From the NCBI GenBank assembly GCA_947451935.1, contig CANGBH010000009.1, forward strand, positions 1 to 62,076: 62,076 nucleotides of DNA. Reading direction: 5' to 3'. Positions 16,232 through 28,010 of the stretch are shown in pieces. The stretch comes from Chitinophagaceae bacterium (GTDB lineage: Bacteria; Bacteroidota; Bacteroidia; Chitinophagales; Chitinophagaceae). Made by a program: the position numbers and the translations under genes. A model generated the notes under the pieces. That model saw only the letters and a program-made list of their open reading frames with translations. It did no database searches and was not told the origin of the DNA. The stretch's first letter is position 1. Each line of letters opens with the position of its first letter.

Positions 16232-17257
16232 ATGTCAGATCAGCTTGATTTAAATGGTAAATCGGTTTTAATAACAGGAGGCACAGGCTCATTTGGAAAA
16301 GCCTTCACATCGTATATATTAGAAAAATTTCCAAGGATAGAGCGCTTAGTAATCTTCTCAAGAGATGAGCAGAAACAGTTTACCATGGCTCAAGATTTTC
16401 CTGATTACCAATTCCCTCAAATTCGATTTTTTATTGGGGATGTAAGAGACTACGAAAGATTGAAAAGGGCTTTTCAGGGAATTGATTATGTAATCCATGC
16501 TGCTGCTATGAAACATGTGCCTATTGCAGAATACAATCCTGATGAATGTGTAAAGACAAATATCGGTGGAGCTGAAAATGTAATTCGCGCTGCCCTTGAA
16601 ACTTCTGTTAGCAAGGTTGTTGCACTCTCTACAGATAAAGCATGTGCGCCTATTAATTTATATGGTGCAACAAAACTTACTTCTGATAAATTGTTCATCG
16701 CAGCAAATAATATCCGCGGTAAAAAAGATATAATTTTCTCCGTAGTGCGTTACGGAAATGTAATGGGCTCAAACGGGTCGGTGATGCCATTCTTTTTAAA
16801 GAAGCGAAAAGATGCATTCATCCCAATTACCGATGCCGCTATGACACGATTTAATATTTCATTGACGGAAGGAGTTGAAATGGTATTGAGTGCATTACAT
16901 TCAGCTTGGGGTGGAGAATTATTTGTTCCCAAAATTCCATCATATCGAATCACTGATGTAGCTGAAGCCATAGCACCAGGTGTAGAGCAAAAAATTGTAG
17001 GAATCAGACCAGGCGAAAAAATACATGAGGAAATGATAACATCGTCAGATTCCTACTCAACCTATGACTTAGGAAAATATTACGCGATTCTACCTCAAGT
17101 ACCAAGATGGTCACTAAATGATTTTATTACTCGTTTCAACGCGGTAAAAGTTCCTGTTGGCTTCACGTATAATTCAGGTGAAAATAAAGAGTGGTTGTCT
17201 GTCGCAGATATTCGATCGCTTATTCAACAACACGTTGATCCAACATTTGAAGTATGA
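16232..17257 (+). CDS. pseB: UDP-N-acetylglucosamine 4,6-dehydratase (inverting), PseB
   Basis: 341 residues. It is a short, soluble 4,6-dehydratase/5-epimerase with TGGTGSFG near 15-22, FSRDEQKQ, HAAAMKHVPIAEYNP, STDKACAPINLYGATK (Thr134, Asp135, Lys136, Tyr144, Lys148) and RYGNVMGSNGSV. The inverting PseB family has this STDKA-PINLYGATK pattern and no membrane domain, unlike WbpM. It makes the UDP-4-keto-6-deoxy-L-AltNAc intermediate, step 1 of pseudaminic acid synthesis. Its stop overlaps the next start by four bases (ATGA), the same junction that precedes the intact pseC at 19855. That points to an original direct pseB-pseC pair. Confidence 0.93.
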   Translation: MSDQLDLNGKSVLITGGTGSFGKAFTSYILEKFPRIERLVIFSRDEQKQFTMAQDFPDYQFPQIRFFIGDVRDYERLKRAFQGIDYVIHAAAMKHVPIAEYNPDECVKTNIGGAENVIRAALETSVSKVVALSTDKACAPINLYGATKLTSDKLFIAANNIRGKKDIIFSVVRYGNVMGSNGSVMPFFLKKRKDAFIPITDAAMTRFNISLTEGVEMVLSALHSAWGGELFVPKIPSYRITDVAEAIAPGVEQKIVGIRPGEKIHEEMITSSDSYSTYDLGKYYAILPQVPRWSLNDFITRFNAVKVPVGFTYNSGENKEWLSVADIRSLIQQHVDPTFEV

Positions 17258-17625
17258 CTTCAATTTCTTACGGTAAGCAACATATAACCGAAGATGATTT
17301 GGCTGCAGTGGCAAAAGCATTGCAGTCTGACTATTTAACCCAAGGTCCAACCATTAAACTTTTTGAAGATGCCTCCTCTTCGTATGTTGGATTTAAAAAT
17401 GCAGTAGCTGTTTCTAATGGAACAGCGGAATTGCATTTATCTGCATTGGTCTTAGGAGTAGATAATCAATCCAATGTTATGCCAACACCTATTACCTTTG
17501 CTGCTGCCAATTGTATGGGGTACTGCGAAAGTAACAGTTGGGTTGAAGGCGTAGCTACTTTTTTATGGTATCCTGTTAATTATCTTGCAACTGCAGTAGA
17601 CTGGATTATTATTACAAATAACTGA
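17254..17625 (+). pseudogene. Internally deleted pseC copy
   Basis: 123 codons. The first ~95 closely follow the intact PseC at 19855 (YGKQHITEDDLAAVAKALQS, SDYLTQGPTIKLFEDA, AVSNGTA-LHLSAL). It then jumps across about 90 missing residues to a degraded version of the PLP-lysine segment: YPVNYLATAVDW-IIITNN replaces HPVKHIATGEGG-MITTNN. The Schiff-base lysine is thus Asn, and the whole C-terminal half is absent. The remaining open frame cannot encode an active aminotransferase. It sits directly after pseB with the native 4-base overlap and marks one side of a duplication around the WbpM-like gene. Confidence 0.88.
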
Positions 17626-17635
17626 GGACAATAAA

Positions 17636-19528
17636 ATGATAAAAACGTCAAGTGTACTACCCCGCTCTATTATTTTTCTTGTGGATATGATCTGTATTGT
17701 ATTTGCTCTATGGTGGGCAATTATGGTTAGGTTTAACTTTGACAATGATTTAATCAATTTGCATATTGCCTTCAGAACAATTACGTTGGTGTCTTTAATA
17801 TTTGGGTTGGTTTTTCTATCAATAAAAACCTATGCTGGAATTGTACGATATACTAGTTCTAAAGATGCATTTCGAATTGCAATAGCCGTGATAGCTTCAT
17901 GCTTGATTTTGGCTTTGATCGGGAAAATGGCTATTCCTACTGTATCAAATTTATATCTTCAGTTTTCTATTTTGATTCTTCTTAGCACATTCAGTTTCGT
18001 CTTTTTAATGACTTATCGAGTTGGGGTAAAGTATCTTTTTTCACATCTTCGAAATGTGAGAATGATAAAAAAGAATGTTATAATCTATGGTGCAGCTGAA
18101 GCGGGCATGGTTACTAAACGCGTCTTAGACAAAGATGGGAATAACTATGTAAATGTAGTTGCATTCATTGATGATAATGTCAAAAAGCATAACAGAGTAT
18201 TAGATGGAATTACTATATACCCTTTCAGCCAATTGCCTCTTTTAGTAAGTGAAAATGTTATTGATGAAATTGTCATTGCTAGTTTCTCAATACCGGCTTT
18301 TCGAAAAAATGAATTAGTTGATTTTTCGTTGAATAATAATGTTAAAGTATTAACCGTTCCTGTTTTCAAAAACTGGAATGAAGGATCTTTCTCATCTAAA
18401 CAATTGAGGACAATTAACATTGAGGAATTGTTAGAGCGAGAAGCAATCATTATTAATAACATCCAAATCAGGAATCAAATTAAGGGGAAAAGAATCTTAG
18501 TTACCGGTGCTGCTGGGTCAATAGGTAGTGAAATTGTTCGACAGCTCTTGTGTCACAATCCTGAATTGATAGTATTATGTGATTGTGCCGAAACTCCTTT
18601 ACACCATTTACTTCTGGAACTTGAAGAGGGCAAAACGAATACAAATTGTTTGCCTTTTCTCGCAAGCGTTACAAGTGAGCCTAGGATGAAGGAGTTATTT
18701 GAGGAGTACAAACCTCAAATTGTATACCATGCTGCCGCCTACAAACATGTTCCTATGATGGAGCTTTTTCCAACTGAAGCCGTGAAAAATAATTCAATAG
18801 GGACACGTGTTGTTGCTGATTTATCTGTTTCTTATAATGTGGAGCGATTTGTGATGGTTTCTACTGATAAGGCAGTTAACCCAACTAATGTAATGGGAGC
18901 TTCAAAACGATTAGCAGAGATATATGTTCAAGGCTTAGCAAAATCCGCTACTCATTCAACTCGCTTTATTACGACACGATTCGGAAATGTTTTGGGCTCT
19001 AATGGTTCTGTTATAAATCTATTTAAAGAACAAATTGAGCGAGGCGGTCCTGTTACGGTAACGCATCCAAACATTACACGTTATTTCATGACAATACCTG
19101 AAGCTTGCCAACTTGTTATGGAAGCTGGAGCTATGGGTAATGGAGGCGAAATTTTTGTGTTTGATATGGGGCAATCTGTTAGAATACTCGATTTGGCAAA
19201 GAAGATGATTAGGTTATATGGATTTATCCCAAATATTGACATTCAAATTCATTATACTGGATTAAGGCCTGGAGAGAAATTGTACGAAGAATTGTTGAAT
19301 GATGGTGAGAATACTTCACATACATATCATGAAAAAATATTAATCGCAAAAGTTCGTGATGTTTCTTTAGATAGCGTCATTTCAAGTTTTAATCAACTTG
19401 AGTTAATTCTTGCAGGGGATGATGAAATGCTACTTGTTTCTAAAATGAAAGAATTGGTGCCAGAGTTTTTGAGTAAAAATAGTGAGTACGAAAAACTTGA
19501 TCATGCAAAAGTGATTGCTATCAATTAA
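17636..19528 (+). CDS. Membrane-anchored nucleotide-sugar 4,6-dehydratase/epimerase, WbpM/CapD (FlaA1) family
   Basis: 630 residues. Four N-terminal transmembrane helices (IIFLVDMICIVFALWWAIM, ITLVSLIFGLVFLSI, IAVIASCLILALIG, FSILILLSTFSFVFLM) are followed by a CoA-binding-like Rossmann domain (KKNVIIYGAAEAGMV) and then the catalytic SDR domain: TGAAGSIGSEIV at ~288, HAAAYKHVPMMELFP, and STDKAVNPTNVMGASK with the SMK-type Met420 and Lys424 typical of the WbpM group. Such enzymes make UDP-4-keto-6-deoxy-GlcNAc (QuiNAc and FucNAc routes). It is flanked by decayed pseC and pseB copies and is not itself required for Pse. It may feed a second deoxyaminosugar. Confidence 0.92.
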   Translation: MIKTSSVLPRSIIFLVDMICIVFALWWAIMVRFNFDNDLINLHIAFRTITLVSLIFGLVFLSIKTYAGIVRYTSSKDAFRIAIAVIASCLILALIGKMAIPTVSNLYLQFSILILLSTFSFVFLMTYRVGVKYLFSHLRNVRMIKKNVIIYGAAEAGMVTKRVLDKDGNNYVNVVAFIDDNVKKHNRVLDGITIYPFSQLPLLVSENVIDEIVIASFSIPAFRKNELVDFSLNNNVKVLTVPVFKNWNEGSFSSKQLRTINIEELLEREAIIINNIQIRNQIKGKRILVTGAAGSIGSEIVRQLLCHNPELIVLCDCAETPLHHLLLELEEGKTNTNCLPFLASVTSEPRMKELFEEYKPQIVYHAAAYKHVPMMELFPTEAVKNNSIGTRVVADLSVSYNVERFVMVSTDKAVNPTNVMGASKRLAEIYVQGLAKSATHSTRFITTRFGNVLGSNGSVINLFKEQIERGGPVTVTHPNITRYFMTIPEACQLVMEAGAMGNGGEIFVFDMGQSVRILDLAKKMIRLYGFIPNIDIQIHYTGLRPGEKLYEELLNDGENTSHTYHEKILIAKVRDVSLDSVISSFNQLELILAGDDEMLLVSKMKELVPEFLSKNSEYEKLDHAKVIAIN

Positions 19529-19679: not shown

Positions 19680-19857
19680 GTTCTTTATTAAAACCATCAA
19701 ACGCCAATCATGCCACTAAAGGGTTTTGTTTCTGGTTTTAATGTTGTAAATTTTTTTGTAAGTTCTTTATACAATTCAGGTGAAAATAAAGAGTGGCTAT
19801 GTATGGCCGATATTCGATCGCCTATTCAAAACACGTTGATTCAACAGTTGAGTTATG
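19680..19857 (+). pseudogene. Decayed 3' end of a second pseB copy
   Basis: The stretch before the intact pseC aligns with the last ~170 bases of pseB (17080-17257). The clearest part is ttcaggtgaaaataaagagtgg (present at both 17171 and 19776), then gatattcgatcgc-tattcaa, cacgttgat-caaca and the stop/start junction ttatgacttcaatt. Upstream similarity fades (cactaaa, ttttatt-type matches near 19713). Point changes and indels have destroyed the frame. It shows that intact pseC once followed a full pseB. Confidence 0.75.
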
Positions 19858-21042
19858 ACTTCAATTCCTTACGGTAAGCAACACATAACGGAAGATGATC
19901 TTGCTGCAGTGGCAAAAGCATTGCAATCTGACTATTTAACCCAAGGTCCAACCATTAAACTTTTTGAAGATGCATTTGCTTCGTATGTTGGAGCAAAATA
20001 TGCCGTGGCTGTTTCCAATGGAACAGCAGCATTGCATTTGTCTGCATTGGCCATAGGGGTAGATAATCAAACCAATGTCATAACAACACCTATTACATTT
20101 GCGGCCTCTGCCAATTGTATACGGTACTGCGGTGGAAACGTTTGGTTCGCTGACATCGACCCTATTAACTACACGCTTGATCTTAAAAAAACGGAAGAGC
20201 TGATTTTATCAAAACCTCCTCATTTTTTTAAAGGAATCATCCCAGTTGACTTTGCAGGATATCCCGTAGACTTAGAAGCATTTCGAAAACTAGCAGATAA
20301 ACATGGGCTATGGCTTATAGAAGATTCGTGCCATGCTCCTGGTGGATTTTTTACTGATTCAACACAAAACGCTCAGCATTGTGGAAATGGAGCATATGCT
20401 GATTTAGCTATTTTTTCATTTCATCCCGTTAAGCATATTGCAACAGGAGAAGGTGGAATGATTACTACGAACAATCCTGATTTATATAAGAAGCTGTTAT
20501 TGCTTCGCTCTCATGGGATTACCCGTGAGGCAACGCAATTCACCAATAGTGCAGAATTTGCCGCAGGTTCATCATCTGATGCATATCCTGGTTGGTATAT
20601 GGAAATGCAAGAACTTGGATACAATTATCGGTTCACTGATTTTCAATCTGCCCTTGGCATAAGTCAACTCAAACGAGCAAATCAGGGTTTAGAGAAACGC
20701 AGAAAAATCGCTAAGACCTATGCCGATGCATTTAAGCTTGCTAGTTTTATAACTGGTCAGTCGGGTGTTGTTGAAGGCCACGCCTATCATCTTTATGTAA
20801 TCGAAACAGATAAGCGTTTAGCGTTATATGAATTTTTAAAAACCAAACAAATTTTTACACAGGTTCATTATATCCCATGTCATTTGATGCCCTATTATCG
20901 TGAATTGGGATGGAAAGAAGGTGCATTACCCATCGCAGAAAATTATTACAAACATTGTTTGAGTCTACCTATGTATCCAACGCTAACGGAAGCAGAGCAG
21001 CAGTATGTTATTGATACCATAAATAATTTCTTCAGTGTCTAA
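19855..21042 (+). CDS. pseC: UDP-4-amino-4,6-dideoxy-N-acetyl-beta-L-altrosamine transaminase, PseC
   Basis: 395 residues, a DegT/DnrJ/EryC1-type PLP aminotransferase. Features: YGKQHITEDDLAAV start typical of PseC, AVSNGTAALHLSALAIG (cofactor phosphate binding), TTPITFAASANCIRYCGG, ADIDP, IEDSCHAPGG, and the PLP lysine Lys193 in SFHPVKHIATGEGG. It aminates C4 of the PseB product (Pse step 2, glutamate as donor). It is full length for the family and intact, unlike the broken copy at 17254. Its 3' end overlaps the GTG start of pseF by 8 bases, so pseC-pseF-pseH are translationally coupled. Confidence 0.93.
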   Translation: MTSIPYGKQHITEDDLAAVAKALQSDYLTQGPTIKLFEDAFASYVGAKYAVAVSNGTAALHLSALAIGVDNQTNVITTPITFAASANCIRYCGGNVWFADIDPINYTLDLKKTEELILSKPPHFFKGIIPVDFAGYPVDLEAFRKLADKHGLWLIEDSCHAPGGFFTDSTQNAQHCGNGAYADLAIFSFHPVKHIATGEGGMITTNNPDLYKKLLLLRSHGITREATQFTNSAEFAAGSSSDAYPGWYMEMQELGYNYRFTDFQSALGISQLKRANQGLEKRRKIAKTYADAFKLASFITGQSGVVEGHAYHLYVIETDKRLALYEFLKTKQIFTQVHYIPCHLMPYYRELGWKEGALPIAENYYKHCLSLPMYPTLTEAEQQYVIDTINNFFSV

Positions 21043-21721
21043 TATTTGTATCATACCAGCTCGTGGTGGCAGCAAGCGTATTGAGCGGAAAAACATCAAA
21101 GATTTTTTTGGCCAGCCCATCATTAGCTATTCAATTTCAGCAGCGATTCAATCCGGCTTGTTTGATGAAGTTATGGTATCTACTGATGATGCTGAAATTG
21201 CTTCAGTGGCTTCGTCCTGTGGAGCATCAGTTCCTTTTTTACGAAGTGCAAAAAACTCAGATGATTTTGCTACAACAGCTAATGTAGTTGAAGAAGTACT
21301 CGCCCAATATCAAGAAGTTCAACAAAAGAAGTTTGATTACGTATGCTGCATCTACCCAACTGCGCCGCTAATAAATATAAATCATCTGAAACAAGGCTAT
21401 GATCTCATCATTAATAATAATTACCCAACCGTTTTCCCAGCAGTTGAATTTAGTTACCCTGTTTGGCGGGGACTTAAACTAAATGGAGAGGGAATTTCAA
21501 ATTTCGCATGGCCAGAACATAAAAATGCTAGATCGCAAGACCTTCAACCGATTTACCATGATGCAGGACAGTGGTACTGGATTAATCTGAGTGAAGGTTG
21601 TGTATTGTCATTGGAAGGTGCAGGGGTTGTAAAACTATCAGAAATGGAATGCCAAGATATAGACAACCTATCTGATTGGAAGTTGGCAGAGATGAAGTAT
21701 AAATTATTGAATAACGCCTAA
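21035..21721 (+). CDS. pseF: Pseudaminic acid cytidylyltransferase, PseF
   Basis: 228 residues from a GTG start inside the end of pseC. The CMP-sialic-acid synthetase fold is marked by the P-loop-like IPARGGSKRIERKNIKDFFG, QPIISYSISAAIQSGLFDEV, MVSTDDAEIA, and CCIYPTAPLI. The shorter RIERKNIKDF form and the pseI/pseC context favour PseF over NeuA or LegF. It activates pseudaminic acid with CTP to give CMP-Pse, the last step before transfer. The upstream gene is pseC and the next gene starts one base after its stop. Confidence 0.92.
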   Translation: MSNICIIPARGGSKRIERKNIKDFFGQPIISYSISAAIQSGLFDEVMVSTDDAEIASVASSCGASVPFLRSAKNSDDFATTANVVEEVLAQYQEVQQKKFDYVCCIYPTAPLININHLKQGYDLIINNNYPTVFPAVEFSYPVWRGLKLNGEGISNFAWPEHKNARSQDLQPIYHDAGQWYWINLSEGCVLSLEGAGVVKLSEMECQDIDNLSDWKLAEMKYKLLNNA

Positions 21722-22312
21722 ATGACTGATTTTTCATTTCCCACCAATTTGCAGTATAAGGCATTAACCAAACAGGTTTTTACTAGTGGAGATTATTCTA
21801 TTGTTCCTATTCGAATGATGGATAGGATGCAAATCATGAAATGGCGCAATGAGCAACTTTATCATTTGAGGCAAAAGAGTCCATTAACTGCAGCCCAACA
21901 AGATGACTATTATAAGCATGTTCTTTTACCGCAATTTGATGAACAAAATCCACCACAACTATTATTCTCTTACCTAGAAAAGGATTCATGTATAGGGTAT
22001 GGTGGATTGGTGCATATAGATTGGAATTTAAAAGAAGCGGAGATTTCATTCATCATGGATACTTCACTAGAAGAACAATATTTCAATTTTCATTGGAGCA
22101 AATATCTCAGCCTACTAGAGAAAGCGGCATTTGCTGATTTACAGTTTCATAGAATATTCACCTATGCATTTGACTTGAGGCCGAAGTTGTATGAAGTGAT
22201 GGAATCTAATGACTATATTAGAAAAGAAGAGGGTTCACATGTGGCTAAATCTACTGACAAGTATTCGAAAGTCATCATTCACGAAAAACTAATGTCACAA
22301 TATCATGCTTAG
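21722..22312 (+). CDS. pseH: GNAT-family N-acetyltransferase, PseH-like
   Basis: 196 residues. The protein opens with VPIRMMDRMQIMKWRNEQLY, a pattern shared by PseH-type GNAT enzymes (R-x-x-D-x-x-x-x-x-x-W-R-N). It continues with DSCIGYGGLVHIDW (beta4 and CoA site region) and EAEISFIMDT, and ends with a FHRIFTYAFDLRPKLYEVME segment. In Pse synthesis PseH acetylates the C4 amine made by PseC (step 3). It is alone, without the PseG hydrolase domain sometimes fused or adjacent. The symbol rests on position plus motif. Its 3' end overlaps the next start by 8 bases. Confidence 0.8.
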   Translation: MTDFSFPTNLQYKALTKQVFTSGDYSIVPIRMMDRMQIMKWRNEQLYHLRQKSPLTAAQQDDYYKHVLLPQFDEQNPPQLLFSYLEKDSCIGYGGLVHIDWNLKEAEISFIMDTSLEEQYFNFHWSKYLSLLEKAAFADLQFHRIFTYAFDLRPKLYEVMESNDYIRKEEGSHVAKSTDKYSKVIIHEKLMSQYHA

Positions 22313-23186
22313 TGTTTTAGTGCTTGGTGGTACAAAGTATGTTGGATTGGAGTTGATTGAATTGTTGAGGAATCATAAAATTCCCTTTCATGTTGCTTCT
22401 AGGAGAGAAATTGATGTTGTGCATTTTACAAAATTAGATCGGAAAAATCCAGAGGAAATGAATGCGTTGTTTTCATCTCATTCATTTGATGTTGTAGTTG
22501 ACTTTATAGGATACTCTGCAGTTGATGCTGCAGTGTTGCATAATGCAATTTCATTGCAAGCTAAAAAGCCCAAATTAATTCTGGTGTCAACAATCTACAC
22601 TTATGCTTTGCCTTTGGAGTTGACATCGGACTCTTTCTTTAATGAAGAATCATTCAATGCCTTAGCTATTCCAATCTTAATGATTGATCGCCCTGAAATC
22701 AGTTACGGAGAAGGGAAGCGAAATATGGAAGCCTATTTCGCACAACATTATGATTTGGACAAACAAGTGGTTTTAAGGTTTCCGATCATATTAGGGGCTA
22801 ATGATTATACGCGTAGAACACATTTTTACATCGATAAGTTGGCAGAGGCTATTCGCATAAATCCTAAATCACTTGATGCATCTGTTAATTATATTATTGC
22901 GAAAGAAGCTGCACAGGCGATTCTGAATTTTATCATTACTGAATATTATGGAACCTATAATGTCAGTTTCTCTCAAATTAGTGAGAGGAATTTAATGAGA
23001 TTGTATTGTGATTTTTATCAAAAAGACTTAGATGCGTTAATAGATACTGATGCGGAAGAAATAAAAACTCCTTTCACTTCAAATTTCAATTTTATAGTTG
23101 ATTCATCTAAATACAGTAATATATTTCCAATTGAGATTGAGTTTAAAGATGCTTTGTGTAGAGAACTTTTAAAGGTTTCCGTTTGA
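22305..23186 (+). CDS. NAD-dependent epimerase/dehydratase (extended SDR) in the Pse operon
   Basis: 293 residues. The Rossmann start is VLVLGGTKYVGLELIELL (residues 4-21). The GTKYVG form of the glycine motif and a two-residue DRKNPEEMN element recall the RNA-binding/isoflavone-reductase-like atypical SDRs. A Tyr-Lys pair may lie in SYGEGKRNME, with STIYTYA holding the Ser. VVLRFPIILGANDYTRRTHF is a substrate-side segment. The product is a sugar- or nucleotide-sugar-modifying oxidoreductase of unknown substrate. It is coupled by overlap to pseH upstream and to the phosphoesterase downstream (4 bases), which argues for a shared pathway step. Confidence 0.75.
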   Translation: MLSVLVLGGTKYVGLELIELLRNHKIPFHVASRREIDVVHFTKLDRKNPEEMNALFSSHSFDVVVDFIGYSAVDAAVLHNAISLQAKKPKLILVSTIYTYALPLELTSDSFFNEESFNALAIPILMIDRPEISYGEGKRNMEAYFAQHYDLDKQVVLRFPIILGANDYTRRTHFYIDKLAEAIRINPKSLDASVNYIIAKEAAQAILNFIITEYYGTYNVSFSQISERNLMRLYCDFYQKDLDALIDTDAEEIKTPFTSNFNFIVDSSKYSNIFPIEIEFKDALCRELLKVSV

Positions 23187-23878
23187 AAATAGCTGTATTG
23201 TCTGATATTCATGGCAATAAATATGCATTAAAAGAAGTGTTGGATGAAGTCTCCCATCACCAAATAGAAAAGGTATTTGTTTTGGGCGATTGTGTTGGTT
23301 ATTATTATTATCCTAATGAAGTGCTGGAGATGTTGTCCCCTTGGGAGCCGGAAATGATTCAAGGTAACCATGAGAAATTGCTTATGCAGTTGAAGAATAA
23401 AGAAATTGATTCGAATGTATTGAAGTCAAAATATGGAAGTGGGCATATTAAGGCCCTCGAAAAACTATCCGAAAAACAATTGGAGTATTTGTTGTCAAAG
23501 CCATTTTCTACTTCTGTAAAAATAGATGATATTTCATTTCAGCTAAACCATGGTAGTCCATGGGATTATAATACTTACTTATATCCAGATACAGATAAAG
23601 CTATTTTAGAAAAGTGCAATTCAAGTGATCACGATTTTGTTTTAGTTGGCCATTCTCATTATGCTTTTAGCTACACGTGTAATAATAGTATTTTGATTAA
23701 TGTAGGGTCGGTAGGACAGTCTAGGTCAAAAGGGGGCATCGCTGATTGGGTAATAATAGAAACGAGTACTAAGCAAGTTGAATTTAAGAAGACAGCTTAT
23801 TCTACAGAATGCTTAATGAGGGATGTTGAGAAATTCGATCCTGAAAATTCATATAATCTGAGTATCTTAAGTAGATAA
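23183..23878 (+). CDS. Calcineurin-like metallophosphoesterase (YfcE/MJ0936 type) in the Pse operon
   Basis: 231 residues from a TTG start overlapping the previous stop. All metal motifs are present: SDIHGN (Asp8, His10), GDCVGY (Asp36), GNHE (Asn62, His63), NHGSP and GHSH (His157, His159), then NVGSVGQSR. This family hydrolyses phosphodiesters or phosphomonoesters with two metals; LpxH, which cleaves UDP-diacylglucosamine, shows that UDP-sugars can be substrates. Here the classical PseG UDP-sugar hydrolase is missing. The enzyme could act at that step or remove a phosphate from a modified sugar, which is inference from context. It ends one base into the ATP-grasp gene. Confidence 0.87.
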   Translation: MKIAVLSDIHGNKYALKEVLDEVSHHQIEKVFVLGDCVGYYYYPNEVLEMLSPWEPEMIQGNHEKLLMQLKNKEIDSNVLKSKYGSGHIKALEKLSEKQLEYLLSKPFSTSVKIDDISFQLNHGSPWDYNTYLYPDTDKAILEKCNSSDHDFVLVGHSHYAFSYTCNNSILINVGSVGQSRSKGGIADWVIIETSTKQVEFKKTAYSTECLMRDVEKFDPENSYNLSILSR

Positions 23879-24816
23879 TGAGGAAGATTAATATTCTTAT
23901 TGCAGGTTGTGGAGGTGATATTGGACAAAGTATTGCTAAAGTGCTTAAGTCGAATAGCCATATTTCACGATTAATCGGCACTGATTTAAATAACGATCAT
24001 GCAGGTGTTTTTTTATTTGATGAATGTTTTACACTTCCTAGATGCACTGATACGAATTATCTTGATCGACTAAAAGATTTAGTGTTAGCCAATGATATAG
24101 ATGTTATCATTCCGGTATCCGAATCTGAAATTCGTTTTTTCTTTGAAAATAAGTGTAGGAATTCACTTTCAGCCAAAGTCCTGTTAGTTAACGATGAAGC
24201 TCTTAGTGTTGGATTGGATAAACTAGAAACTGCACTCTTTTTGGAAAAAAATAACTTGAATTATCCTGTTACATATTTATATGAGGGGAATCAACATCTT
24301 GCATATCCATTTATAGCTAAAAGTAGGACAGGCTCAGGAAGCAAAAATGTATTTCTTGTAGAGGATGAAACAGACTTAAACTATCTAAAAGATAAGAAGC
24401 AGGGATTTATTATCCAGGAGTATCTTCCAAATGAATCAGAAGAATATACCTGTGGCTTATTCAGGTCTAGTAATGGGGACGTTAGGCACATTACGTTTAG
24501 GCGTACACTCATGGGAGGTTTTTCTGGTTATGGTGAAGTGGTTATTCATGCCGAGATCGATAAGCTGCTTGTTTCTATAGCTAATCATCTAGGTCTCATC
24601 GGTTCCATTAATGTACAATTGAGGTTTAATGCCAAGGGCCCGTGTGTATTTGAAATAAACCCAAGGTTTTCAAGTACAGTTCGATTTAGGGATTTGATGG
24701 GATTTCATGATGTAATTTGGTCGCTCGAGGATTTGTTGGAAGAGGAAATTTCATCCTATTCTATAGTTGCCGCAGGCAAAAAGTTTTATAAAGGGTTTTC
24801 AGAATACATAGATTAA
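23878..24816 (+). CDS. ATP-grasp ligase (CarB/PylC-like) in the Pse operon
   Basis: 312 residues. The N-terminal pre-ATP-grasp domain is Rossmann-like (INILIAGCGGDIGQSIAKVL, then IDVIIPVSESEIRFF). The ATP-grasp fold follows: FIAKSRTGSGSKNVFLVED (ATP lysine and glycine loop), IIQEYLPNESEEYTCGLF, and the metal site GSINVQLRFN with EINPRFS. Relatives form amide or peptide bonds by way of acyl phosphates, which suggests the enzyme joins an amino acid or acyl group to an amino sugar, or makes an acyl donor. Its start overlaps the phosphoesterase stop (TAATG) and pseI begins six bases after its end, so it is part of the Pse transcription unit. Confidence 0.85.
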   Translation: MRKINILIAGCGGDIGQSIAKVLKSNSHISRLIGTDLNNDHAGVFLFDECFTLPRCTDTNYLDRLKDLVLANDIDVIIPVSESEIRFFFENKCRNSLSAKVLLVNDEALSVGLDKLETALFLEKNNLNYPVTYLYEGNQHLAYPFIAKSRTGSGSKNVFLVEDETDLNYLKDKKQGFIIQEYLPNESEEYTCGLFRSSNGDVRHITFRRTLMGGFSGYGEVVIHAEIDKLLVSIANHLGLIGSINVQLRFNAKGPCVFEINPRFSSTVRFRDLMGFHDVIWSLEDLLEEEISSYSIVAAGKKFYKGFSEYID

Positions 24817-24821
24817 AGAGT

Positions 24822-25859
24822 ATGTTGAAGGAATTAAGTGTACTAGAGTTTTCAAAAGTATTTATCATCGCAGAATTATCCGCAAACCACAACGGTAGTT
24901 TGGAAACAGCTAAGGAAACTATTCGTGCAGCAAAGCGCGCTGGAGCAGACTGCATTAAATTGCAAACGTATACAGCAGACACAATTACCATCGATTCAAG
25001 CAAGGATGATTTCTTGATAAAAGGAACTATATGGGATGGTCAGAATCTATATAATCTTTACCAACAAGCCTACACGCCATGGGAATGGCATAAAGAATTG
25101 TTTGATGTAGCAAAAGAAGAAGGGCTTGTTTGTTTTTCATCTCCATTTGATAAAACAGCGGTTGATTTTTTAGAAACCCTAGATACGCCTGCTTATAAAA
25201 TTGCCTCATTTGAAATAACCGATATCCCCTTGATTGAATATGTTGCTTCTAAAGGGAAACCAGTTATCATATCTACAGGAATTGCAGAAATTGCCGATAT
25301 CGAATTGGCCGTCGAGGCATGTAAAAGAATGGGTAATACTAAGATTGCATTACTAAAGTGTACTTCTAGTTATCCAGCTCCCATTGAGGAAGCGAATATG
25401 AGTATGATAAAAGATCTTGCCAATCGGTTTGGAGTGGTTGCTGGATTATCTGATCATACCATGGGTGCCACTGTTCCAATAGTGGCAACTGTACTAGGAG
25501 CAAAAATCATCGAAAAGCATTTCATACTTGACCGTTCTGTTGGTGGGCCTGATGCATCTTTCTCCATGAATGAGGTAGAATTTTCTGAGATGGTCAAGTC
25601 TATTCGTGAAGCAGAGTCTGCTATTGGTGTAGTCGATTATGCACTTACAGACAAGCAACTAAAAGGTAAAGAATTTTCAAGATCACTATATGTTGTAGAA
25701 GACATGAAGGAAGGTGACATAATCAATGAGCAAAACGTCAAATCTATACGACCTGGATATGGATTACACCCCAAATTTTATAGTCAAGTCTTAGGTAAGC
25801 AAATTAAAGCAGATCTTGAAAAGGGTACACGATTAAGTTTTGATGACATTCTTCTTTAG
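24822..25859 (+). CDS. pseI: Pseudaminic acid synthase, PseI (NeuB family)
   Basis: 345 residues. The NeuB barrel shows IIAELSANHNGSLETA, CIKLQTYTADTIT, YKIASFEITDIPLI, ISTGIAEIADIE, LLKCTSSYPAP, GLSDHTMGA and EKHFILDRSVGGPDASFS. A C-terminal SAF/antifreeze-like domain (SLYVVEDMKEGDII, RPGYGLHPKFY) covers ~285-345. The TYTADTIT and GTIWDGQNLYNLY elements are typical of PseI rather than sialic acid NeuB. It condenses the 6-deoxy-AltdiNAc sugar with PEP to give pseudaminic acid. It is the last recognisable Pse gene; 62 bp separate it from the acyltransferase gene that follows. Confidence 0.94.
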   Translation: MLKELSVLEFSKVFIIAELSANHNGSLETAKETIRAAKRAGADCIKLQTYTADTITIDSSKDDFLIKGTIWDGQNLYNLYQQAYTPWEWHKELFDVAKEEGLVCFSSPFDKTAVDFLETLDTPAYKIASFEITDIPLIEYVASKGKPVIISTGIAEIADIELAVEACKRMGNTKIALLKCTSSYPAPIEEANMSMIKDLANRFGVVAGLSDHTMGATVPIVATVLGAKIIEKHFILDRSVGGPDASFSMNEVEFSEMVKSIREAESAIGVVDYALTDKQLKGKEFSRSLYVVEDMKEGDIINEQNVKSIRPGYGLHPKFYSQVLGKQIKADLEKGTRLSFDDILL

Positions 25860-25921: not shown

Positions 25922-26980
25922 ATGAAAATCATTCAGGATTTTATTTTGTTTTTTAAATCGATACTGAAGTCAATACTAAGATCATTTCTCCATGGCAGAT
26001 ACTTTCATGGAGTTAGTTTTAGTAATTCTAAGTTCATCTCGATAAATCAGACATCCTTTCTAGAGCGAGGAACAAGGATAGATGTGATTGATTCAATACT
26101 CAAAACGGAACCAAATATTTTGATTGCTGATCATTGTTGGGTTGGGCACGATGTAGAAATTAAGGCTTATGCTGCAGGAAAGATCAATATTGAAAATCAC
26201 GTTTCAATCCAAGACCGGTGTAAGTTATTGGGCGATATTATAGTGAATAGCTATTGCATACTAGCGCCTGATATTTTTATTTCCACAGGTGATCATAGTT
26301 TTCGAAATTTTCCTGCAAGAACAATTCGTGAACAGGATCAACTAAATGCTTCAGAAAATGTGAAATCAACTTATGATAAGCGCATTGTTATCGACGAAGA
26401 TTGTTGGCTTGGTAAAAATGTACTCTTAAAGCCAGGTGTTAAAATAGGACGTGGTGCAGTTATTGGTGCAAATAGTATTGTATCTAACCATATCCCGCCA
26501 TATGAAATTTGGGCTGGGACGCCTGCTAGAAAAATTGGAGCACGATTACCATTTTTGCCAAAGGATGTCATAGAGGTTTCTACAGAAATGGATTTACCTT
26601 ATTTCTACAAGGGTTTTCATCATTTCGGGGAATATGATGAATGTAAAAAAAATGGAATGTTGGCTATTAAGCCACAAGCACTTGTCGTTTTAACCTCAAA
26701 AAAAATCACATCAATCGTATTAAAGGGAGAAAATAGGTCAAGTCAAATAATAACAGTCGAATTCTCTTTTAATGGTCGTCAGCATAGTGCATCTTCCTTT
26801 GCTCCTGGAGGATTCGAGTTTACGTTACCCATTGACGTTAATATAGCTTTTCTTGATACTCCTGTCATACAAGGCGGCTTCCCTAGTTACTTAAAAGAAT
26901 TTTCAATTCTAGAATTTTTTATACGTTATCCTAACTCTACCCATTCACTAACCTTACGCTCAATACAATGTCATGAATAA
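25922..26980 (+). CDS. Hexapeptide-repeat acyltransferase with an extra C-terminal domain
   Basis: 352 residues. Residues ~40-200 are a left-handed beta-helix O-acyltransferase of the WbbJ/maltose-acetyltransferase type: ILIADHCWVGHDVEIKAYAA, NIENHVSIQDRC, the catalytic-loop histidine in STGDHSFRNFP, and IDEDCWLGKNVLLKPGVKI, GRGAVIGANSIV, YEIWAGTPARKIG. Residues ~240-352 are an added beta-rich segment (VVLTSKKITSIVLKGENR, TVEFSFNGRQHSAS, FILDTPVIQGG-like strands) that acetyltransferases of this family usually lack. It probably acetylates or otherwise acylates a sugar of the polymer. It overlaps the PhyH gene by 8 bases. Confidence 0.85.
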   Translation: MKIIQDFILFFKSILKSILRSFLHGRYFHGVSFSNSKFISINQTSFLERGTRIDVIDSILKTEPNILIADHCWVGHDVEIKAYAAGKINIENHVSIQDRCKLLGDIIVNSYCILAPDIFISTGDHSFRNFPARTIREQDQLNASENVKSTYDKRIVIDEDCWLGKNVLLKPGVKIGRGAVIGANSIVSNHIPPYEIWAGTPARKIGARLPFLPKDVIEVSTEMDLPYFYKGFHHFGEYDECKKNGMLAIKPQALVVLTSKKITSIVLKGENRSSQIITVEFSFNGRQHSASSFAPGGFEFTLPIDVNIAFLDTPVIQGGFPSYLKEFSILEFFIRYPNSTHSLTLRSIQCHE

Positions 26981-28010
26981 TATTTTCATTAATCAGGTAA
27001 AAAAGATTCTTCACGGCAAAGCCTTAAAAAAAGGGTTTGCTCATTTTCAAAAAACTGGAATCAGTACTCATGAGGCATACATTGCTATGCGAAATATGTT
27101 CATTTTGACTGGAGGAGCTAGTAATGATAAGTTAAGTGTTGAGATTATGAGTAATCGGCCTAAATATTTAGATATAAAGCCAATTGGGGTGTTGGGCGAC
27201 CTTAGCGCTGGGAAAGCAGAAGCTATGGTTACTAAAATGAAACAAGATGGATATTATATATTCGATAATGTATTAAATGAAGAGTTAGTTGACGAAATAT
27301 TTAAGTATGCATCAACAACACCAACGAGTTATCTTGATTTATCATCGCCTGGACAAAAATATTCCACTAATGAAATAGTGTTTGATGAATCAAAACCGAT
27401 AAGTCCACGTTATCAATTTACAAATAGTAAAATTGTATCATCTCCTCACTTGGTTAATTTGCTTTTTGATCAGAGTCTCTTGTTTTTTGCTCAAGAATAT
27501 TTAGGGTGTAAACCGATATTGGATTTAGTAGCATTCTGGTGGAGCTTGCCATTTAAAGGACAGGGTAAGTCAGAAGCTGCTCAGTTATATCATTTTGATT
27601 TGGATCGAATAAAGTTCATGAAGTTCTTCTTTTACATTACCGATGTCGATACAAATAATGGTCCTCATTGTTATGTTAGAGGATCTCATAAGGAATTGCC
27701 TAAGTCTCTAGCAAGGGATGGTCGATTTAGTGATGAGGAAATAGAGAAAGCCTATGGTAAATCCAACATGGTTGAGATTTGTGGTAGAAAAGGTTCGATC
27801 ATTGCGGTTGATACTAGAGGTTTCCATAAGGGAAAGGAATTGATTCAAGGTAAAAGACTTCTGTTTCAGATTGAATTTGCTAATAGTATGTTTGGCCAGA
27901 GTTATCCGCCTATTGACATAAATCTCGATAGGGAAGCGCATCAGGATATCTATAAAAAATATAGTGATACTTACGGTGAGATTTTACGGTTGGTAAATAC
28001 TGAAAAATAA
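26973..28010 (+). CDS. Phytanoyl-CoA dioxygenase (PhyH)-type Fe(II)/2-oxoglutarate oxygenase
   Basis: 345 residues. The core carries the facial triad: His207-x-Asp209 in LYHFDLDRIKFM and His285 in TRGFHKGKEL, with Arg295 (GKRLLFQIEF) in place to bind 2-oxoglutarate. VDTNNGPHCYVRGSH is the typical PhyH strand between them. Around 100 N-terminal residues (LHGKALKKGFAHFQKTGIS) precede the oxygenase and are not recognised. It should hydroxylate a carbon of a sugar, a lipid or an acyl substituent. It is tightly linked to an acyltransferase upstream and a flippase downstream (2-base gap), so a tailoring role in polymer synthesis is likely. Confidence 0.82.
   Translation: MNNIFINQVKKILHGKALKKGFAHFQKTGISTHEAYIAMRNMFILTGGASNDKLSVEIMSNRPKYLDIKPIGVLGDLSAGKAEAMVTKMKQDGYYIFDNVLNEELVDEIFKYASTTPTSYLDLSSPGQKYSTNEIVFDESKPISPRYQFTNSKIVSSPHLVNLLFDQSLLFFAQEYLGCKPILDLVAFWWSLPFKGQGKSEAAQLYHFDLDRIKFMKFFFYITDVDTNNGPHCYVRGSHKELPKSLARDGRFSDEEIEKAYGKSNMVEICGRKGSIIAVDTRGFHKGKELIQGKRLLFQIEFANSMFGQSYPPIDINLDREAHQDIYKKYSDTYGEILRLVNTEK

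Follow-up and report, generated by a model that had tools for sequence, protein, structure and literature searches.

Many bacteria carry pseudaminic acids as surface sugars, and annotating the pathway that makes them depends on finding PseG and PseH. In the CMP-pseudaminic acid pathway of Helicobacter pylori and Campylobacter jejuni, which comprises PseB, PseC, PseH, PseG, PseI, and PseF, the third step is normally N-acylation by the GNAT enzyme PseH and the fourth is release of UDP by PseG. Here we describe an operon from a Chitinophagaceae bacterium, found in a 62,076-nucleotide stretch of contig CANGBH010000009.1 (assembly GCA_947451935.1, positions 1 to 62,076) that we call the window. The operon shares PseB, PseC, PseI, and PseF with the H. 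pylori and C. jejuni pathway. In contrast to that pathway, the PseH slot holds a short-chain dehydrogenase/reductase (SDR), a metallophosphoesterase (PDE), and an ATP-grasp ligase, referred to below as the cassette, while the PseG slot holds a GNAT-fold protein, GNAT_H, and PseG is absent from the assembly. The distribution of GNAT_H across loci and genomes suggests that it takes the place of PseG.

The nearest published parallel that we found for an ATP-grasp enzyme in such a pathway is the sfmABCDE flagellin operon of Shewanella oneidensis, which, like the operon in the window, brings together a PseI-like protein, an SDR, and an ATP-grasp protein (PMC3765264). S. oneidensis possesses PseB and PseC, but reportedly no clear orthologs of PseH, PseG, PseI, and PseF, and its flagellin carries a pseudaminic-like sugar with an extra group of 236–264 Da (PMC3765264). 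As described there, single deletions of the first four sfm genes are non-motile on soft agar, and the mass shift of flagellin in the ATP-grasp mutant is slightly smaller than in the other mutants. The sfm operon differs from the window in also encoding a thiamine pyrophosphate enzyme and a methyltransferase, its ATP-grasp protein has an ATP-grasp_4 domain, and the main text of the report does not mention a phosphoesterase (PMC3765264). Within Bacteroidota, the Pse5Am7Gra locus of Tannerella forsythia is a pse cluster whose product bears a glyceroyl rather than an acetyl group at N7, and the gene responsible for the glyceroyl group is called elusive (PMC6120980). Unlike the operon in the window, the T. 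forsythia locus is described with both pseG and pseH (PMC6120980). Titles and abstract openings in the open-licence literature that we searched name no PseG substitute or GNAT hydrolase, and searches combining pseudaminic acid with PseG and phosphoesterase, with metallophosphoesterase, or with carbamoyl phosphate synthase and flagellin found no open-licence literature.

All genes of the operon are open and run in one direction on the forward strand. An earlier note on this DNA, made from the sequence alone, recognized PseB, PseC, PseF, and PseI, and the four score above the curated NCBIfam cut-offs by which the operon is classed as one for CMP-pseudaminic acid. They are the inverting UDP-GlcNAc 4,6-dehydratase PseB (16232–17257; TIGR03589, 499 bits, cut-off 408), the aminotransferase PseC, which gives the C4 amine (19855–21042; TIGR03588, 457 bits, cut-off 424), the CMP-pseudaminic acid synthetase PseF, with a GTG start (21035–21721; TIGR03584, 282 bits, cut-off 206), and the pseudaminic acid synthase PseI (24822–25859; TIGR03586, 521 bits, cut-off 340). 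Between pseF and pseI lie the genes for GNAT_H (21722–22312; Pfam Acetyltransf_4), an extended SDR (22305–23186; Pfam RmlD_sub_bind/Epimerase), the PDE, with a TTG start (23183–23878; Metallophos_2, E = 1e-19), and the ATP-grasp ligase (23878–24816; PylC-like_N), which belongs to the PRK12767 'carbamoyl phosphate synthase-like' family with a score barely above the cut-off (PRK12767.1-1, NF009402; 223.5 against 218 bits). The genes for GNAT_H and the SDR overlap by 8 bases, those for the SDR and PDE by 4, and those for the PDE and ATP-grasp ligase by 1, and a gap of 5 bases precedes pseI, confirming the coupled operon that the note described. The PDE is also complete, as had been claimed, with all eight metal-site residues (D8, H10, D36, N62, H63, H123, H157, and H159) invariant in 17 aligned rows that include the window. 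The note had further reported that PseG is missing from the window, and neither TIGR03590 at E ≤ 0.001 nor a 12-row PseG profile finds a match in the window or elsewhere in the assembly, a draft of 2.56 Mb in 186 contigs that is 95.9% complete.

Across genomes, GNAT_H and PseG exclude each other. In a sample of 397 genomes from a single family, that of Polaribacter (L033; L and G numbers are our designations for loci and genomes), PseI is present in 37 genomes and GNAT_H (E ≤ 1e-54) in 11, all of which have PseI. Of the 26 PseI genomes that lack GNAT_H, 25 contain PseG (E ≤ 1e-10) by the 12-row profile, against none of the 11 that have GNAT_H (Fisher p = 1.4e-8), and in the sole exception among the 26, G636, PseI is cut by a contig end. 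The rows of this profile, which are 20–77% identical to the first row, come from genomes outside the family sample, so its 25 matches are a fair test of its reach. A phylum sample added five genomes with strong GNAT_H matches, all 100% complete and one of them a single contig, with PseG in none. Together with the genomes searched in addition to these two samples, the assembly of the window among them, the profile finds PseG in 0 of 21 GNAT_H genomes overall. Weak matches in GNAT_H genomes from the PseG searches with TIGR03590 and the profile (G036, 0.009; G071, 0.05 and 0.08; G828, 3e-6; G562, 0.002; open reading frames of 363–373 residues) were considered as hidden PseG proteins and rejected; judging from their first residues, they resemble MurG, LpxB, or another glycosyltransferase-like protein. 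GNAT matches in G794 (7.7e-15) and in G218 (4.6e-22), a genome with no PseG, were left out of the GNAT_H count because they belong to nonulosonic loci of another kind and do not contain the LRQ motif. Plasmids gave no match to GNAT_H.

GNAT_H also occupies the PseG position within otherwise equivalent gene orders. L042 and L045 have the order GNAT2 (a second acyltransferase), aldo/keto reductase, SpsF, class III aminotransferase, PseG, SDR, PDE, ATP-grasp, and PseI, and L019, L033, L034, and L035 have the same order with GNAT_H in the position of PseG. L120 has the order PseC, PseF, PseG, SDR, PDE, ATP-grasp, and PseI, with GNAT_H again in the position of PseG in L037, a Gillisia locus. Among 24 tabulated loci, chosen for having PDE, ATP-grasp, and PseI, PseG is found in 15, GNAT_H in 8, both in none, and neither in one, L044, which comes from a 0.7 Mb assembly (the table omits L038, with no PseI in its stretch, the contig fragment L121, L051, L057, and the duplicates L026 and L028). 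The same exchange is seen with other acyl modules. PseG is fused to a GNAT in nine loci (L144, L146–148, L150, L152, L156, L158, and L159) and to a formyltransferase in L145 and L160, lies beside a formyltransferase in L151, L154, L155, L157, and L163, and lies beside the cassette in L143/L120. GNAT_H is fused to a GNAT in L136 and L187 and to a formyltransferase in L138, lies beside a formyltransferase in L137, L139, and L186 or a GNAT in L134, L140, L141, L185, and L188, and lies beside the cassette in 8 loci, including the window and L037. The kinds of module joined to PseG and to GNAT_H, and their order within the fusion proteins, are the same, which points to equivalence of the two proteins.

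Every one of the 21 GNAT_H loci has a separate acyl module, some of them named by phmmer against our own references only. In L189, the cassette slot next to GNAT_H is filled by a 656-residue fusion of an epimerase-type SDR and a PylC-like ATP-grasp protein (L189:6978–8948), with no PDE in the examined stretch. In L135, GNAT_H lies beside a true PseH (TIGR03585, 158 bits, cut-off 93) and a MaoC-type hydratase. The gene order PseB, PseC, PseF, GNAT_H, formyltransferase, and PseI in L137 and L186 provides six genes for six steps, which would leave UDP release to GNAT_H. Both PseG and PDE are missing from 13 of the 21 GNAT_H loci, and in the 8 of these 13 that belong to the family sample, no PDE was found genome-wide at E ≤ 1e-40.

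No GNAT other than GNAT_H was found in the operon, and GNAT_H does not have the features of an active acetyltransferase. AlphaFold2 predicts a GNAT fold for it (the top model of five reaches pLDDT 87.3, the other four 71.7–77.2), with PseH (4ri1) as the best Foldseek match (E = 7.6e-11, TM 0.71 on the query). VIA-align places SpeG enzymes (Z 20.0, rmsd 2.6, 163 residues aligned) and PseH (Z 19.4, rmsd 2.8, 167 residues aligned) level with each other. The GNAT_H sequence in the window has no NCBIfam match at E ≤ 0.01, and its Pfam matches are to GNAT models only, with no homology to PseG (TIGR03590). PseH is described as acting on the UDP-4-amino sugar of the pathway and as using Gly103 and Asn131 for CoA (PMC4363471), residues that appear to correspond to the conserved glycine and asparagine columns in our alignment of 20 GNAT_H sequences with 12 companion GNATs. 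All 12 companions have a loop glycine, a glycine, alanine, or serine four residues on, and an asparagine further on. In contrast, the loop glycine is absent from 18 of the 20 GNAT_H sequences, with L134 keeping only the first and L141 having one in a shifted insert, and the asparagine is replaced by arginine in 19 and by glutamate in one. GNAT_H of the window has neither the CoA pyrophosphate loop nor the asparagine, and the operon has no PseH with a CoA site. The 'PseH-like' label given to the protein in the earlier note thus holds for its predicted fold but not for its CoA signature or its profile matches. Across 15 GNAT_H rows, W41, R42, N43, Q45, L49, R50, Q51, Q60, Y63, G92–L96, W101, E107, S109, and D151 are invariant; L188, which is outside these rows, lacks the tryptophan at position 41. 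The catalytic tyrosine of PseH was dropped as an additional marker because the companion GNATs mostly lack it too. In the report on PseH, the UDP-4-amino-sugar was modelled into pockets beside the acetyl-CoA site (PMC4363471), which makes it plausible that a descendant without CoA could bind the next UDP-sugar of the pathway.

A tree of 48 PseI sequences suggests that the exchange occurred repeatedly: the GNAT_H/PseG label changes six times, at least four of them forced by branches with SH-aLRT ≥ 95, and PseI from the window groups with rows of both kinds. The idea of a special PseI for GNAT_H loci was rejected, as the PseI proteins of these loci do not form one clade in this quick tree.

Our tentative interpretation, to which we give slightly less than an even chance, is that GNAT_H is a new nucleotide-sugar hydrolase derived from a PseH-like acetyltransferase, having lost the CoA site, kept the UDP-sugar site, and taken over the job of PseG in several exchanges within Bacteroidota, with the adjacent ATP-grasp cassette adding an amide-linked hydroxy-acyl group to pseudaminic acid. 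Several points weigh against giving the PseG step to GNAT_H and the acylation to the cassette. Among the 50 matches listed for each structure comparison, no description names a hydrolase. The absence of the CoA loop is not clear in L141, and there is a weak match between the GNAT_H domain of L138 and the PseH model (22.7 bits, cut-off 93). Genome completeness is not given for the family sample, in which some genomes are only 1.4–2.2 Mb, and two of the 25 PseG matches are weak (G839, 1e-17; G686, 5e-13, in two pieces), both of them near PseI on its contig. The PseI tree has no bootstrap and its related genomes are not independent; a test of independent pairs had four usable pairs and gave p = 0.125, a number of pairs that cannot reach significance. 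On the side of the cassette, the PDE has no clear task in plain acyl transfer and is not found in L189, and L031 has both NeuD and the cassette, yet only one known new amine.

The likeliest of the alternatives, which we still regard as unlikely, gives GNAT_H a non-catalytic role alongside the acyl module, or a modification at another place on the sugar, while UDP is removed by an unlinked hydrolase common to these Bacteroidota. A degenerate GNAT fused to acyl modules would suit such a role, and a shared unlinked hydrolase could also yield the exclusion of PseG, the genome-wide hydrolase search having covered PseG and NeuC only. A NeuC-type gene scores above its cut-off in 3 of 16 GNAT_H genomes, a point against GNAT_H as the hydrolase; NeuC itself was rejected for the role on this count. 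However, PseG too forms fusions with these kinds of module, arranged alike, the partners of GNAT_H (GNAT, formyltransferase, and ATP-grasp) are unrelated to one another, and the PseI tree shows four or more changes of the label; all of this speaks against the alternative. It is improbable that GNAT_H is an ordinary PseH and that PseG is simply missed, whether in an assembly gap or through divergence. The closeness of the predicted fold to PseH and SpeG, the diversity of the PseG family seen in the profile rows, and the weak PseH match in L138 would fit this explanation, but against it stand the separate acyl module in all 21 GNAT_H loci, in one of them a true PseH, the loss of the CoA loop glycine (18 of 20) and of the asparagine (20 of 20), and a profile that finds PseG in 25 of 26 comparison genomes and in none of the 21 with GNAT_H, one of which is a single contig.

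As one of two options, the earlier note had proposed that the trio replaces PseG. That the PDE, together with the SDR and ATP-grasp ligase, splits the UDP-sugar in this way is in our view very improbable. Metallophosphoesterases that cleave UDP-sugars exist, LpxH being an example, and the missing PseG and intact metal site of the PDE would be compatible with such an activity. However, the NCBIfam matches of the PDE at E ≤ 0.01 are YfcE (55.6 bits, just below the cut-off of 56.25), PRK09453, and PRK00166 only, with no LpxH model among them, and 13 GNAT_H loci have neither PseG nor PDE. The PDE/ATP-grasp cassette does not track the loss of PseG: PDE occurs in 6 of the 397 family genomes, three with and three without PseG (p = 0.37), and the 15 of 24 cassette loci that keep PseG led us to reject the PDE as a general replacement. 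The note had named a pseG elsewhere in the genome, together with the trio lying away from pse genes, as evidence against its proposal; no such pseG was found, and the trio does sit in nonulosonic loci, many of them with pseG. Overall, the reading in the note is partly supported and needs rearranging, since the GNAT gene, and not the trio, stands in the PseG slot.

The cassette is our candidate for the acylation step. The conserved order excludes a chance arrangement, as it is identical in a genome of the same genus, where the PDE is 93% identical, and similar orders are seen again in further families and phyla. In a genome from another family of the order, the pse cluster contains a PDE 54% alike and, replacing the extended SDR, a classical one. 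A scan of public genomes, covering the best 80 of at least 476 relatives (at least 584 stretches) and not a census, gave 19 orthologous loci (L028–L046; E ≤ 3e-36) in Bacteroidota, Pseudomonadota (Bradyrhizobium, Porticoccus, a Burkholderiaceae bin, and others), and Planctomycetota, and among 15 examined of the other 61 loci, PDE adjoins ATP-grasp in L051 and L057 too. In the 24 tabulated loci, the gene preceding PDE is mostly an SDR and sometimes a methyltransferase, and a classical SDR fills the slot elsewhere. The slot of the cassette is held in other loci by an acetyltransferase or formyltransferase. L120 contains pseB, pseC, pseF, PseG, the cassette, and pseI, with no PseH found in the locus, and the cassette is the only acyl module found in 7 of the 8 loci that have PseF and no class III aminotransferase, a set of seven that includes two sister genomes and three Bradyrhizobium; the exception is L031, with NeuD. 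This context backs the other suggestion in the earlier note, in which the three genes serve to put together an acyl or aminoacyl substituent of an unusual kind. The ATP-grasp protein (AlphaFold2 pLDDT 92.6) has 2pn1 as its best Foldseek match, and its predicted fold is related to 2pn1, PurK, the L-amino acid ligase 3vot, and PylC (4ffr). PylC and amino acid ligases form amides.

We consider it probable, from gene content and order, that the operon makes CMP-pseudaminic acid, with the cassette performing the PseH step and GNAT_H the PseG step. In such a pathway, PseB and PseC, assigned to their families by profiles, would make UDP-4-amino-4,6-dideoxy-AltNAc. The cassette would then carry out N-acylation, with the SDR shaping a carboxylic acid, the PDE stripping phosphate from the acid or its product, and the ATP-grasp ligase activating the acid and joining it to the C4 amine. 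The acyl group could be a hydroxy-acyl derived from a phosphoglycerate. Our guess is glyceroyl, because pseudaminic acids with glyceroyl and dimethylglyceroyl groups exist, such as that of C. jejuni with dimethylglyceroyl at N5 (PMC3068675), and because an SDR, phosphatase, methyltransferase, and ligase would suit an acid derived from phosphoglycerate. GNAT_H, as a PseH relative without a CoA site, would probably bind the acylated UDP-sugar in the old acceptor groove and hydrolyse it, as slot exchange and elimination of other candidates suggest, and PseI and PseF would act last, as usual. If GNAT_H does perform the PseG step, calling it an acetyltransferase in these operons is a misannotation, hydrolysis of nucleotide sugars joins the activities of the GNAT fold, and pathways with a seeming gap turn out to be complete. 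Should the cassette produce acyl groups in amide linkage, its genes would be candidates for substituents that lack known genes, such as the glyceroyl group reported in T. forsythia (PMC6120980).

Variation among the related loci hints at further products. A class III aminotransferase is present in L019, L027, L033–L036, L042, L043, L045, L046, L118, and L119, most of which also have an aldo/keto reductase and an SpsF-type cytidylyltransferase that replaces PseF. This aminotransferase may introduce a third amine. Of the 12 cassette loci that have it, 11 contain GNAT2, against 0 of the 12 without it, and this co-occurrence suggests a triamino nonulosonic acid; Flexibacter maritimus is described as having an 8-amino nonulosonic acid that bears a hydroxybutyryl group (PMC3210612). 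A methyltransferase near PDE and ATP-grasp replaces the SDR in L036, L119, and L046 and accompanies it in L027, which would allow for methylation of the acid in part of the species. The true PseH next to the MaoC-type hydratase in the GNAT_H operon of L135 (8268–9213) perhaps uses a hydroxyacyl-CoA, such as hydroxybutyryl-CoA, as the acyl donor. In L185 (9576–12167), GNAT_H is separated from the class III aminotransferase by three genes that resemble a HisF/HisH/WbpG-type acetamidino set. L027, L029, L030, L032, and L046 have a second NeuB-type synthase in the cluster, which in L029 (the same locus as L026) is a 591-residue open reading frame that could include the matched SpsF-type cytidylyltransferase domain.

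Around the operon in the window, pseB is followed by a 5′ fragment of pseC (17254–17625), 84% identical to the intact pseC over 421 bases, and then by a 630-residue open reading frame (17636–19528), which resembles a CapD/PglF-type dehydratase, before the intact pseC. In the sister genome, pseB and pseC are joined directly. Directly after pseI, the window encodes a hexapeptide acyltransferase and a PhyH-like dioxygenase (25922–28010), both of which are kept in the sister genome.

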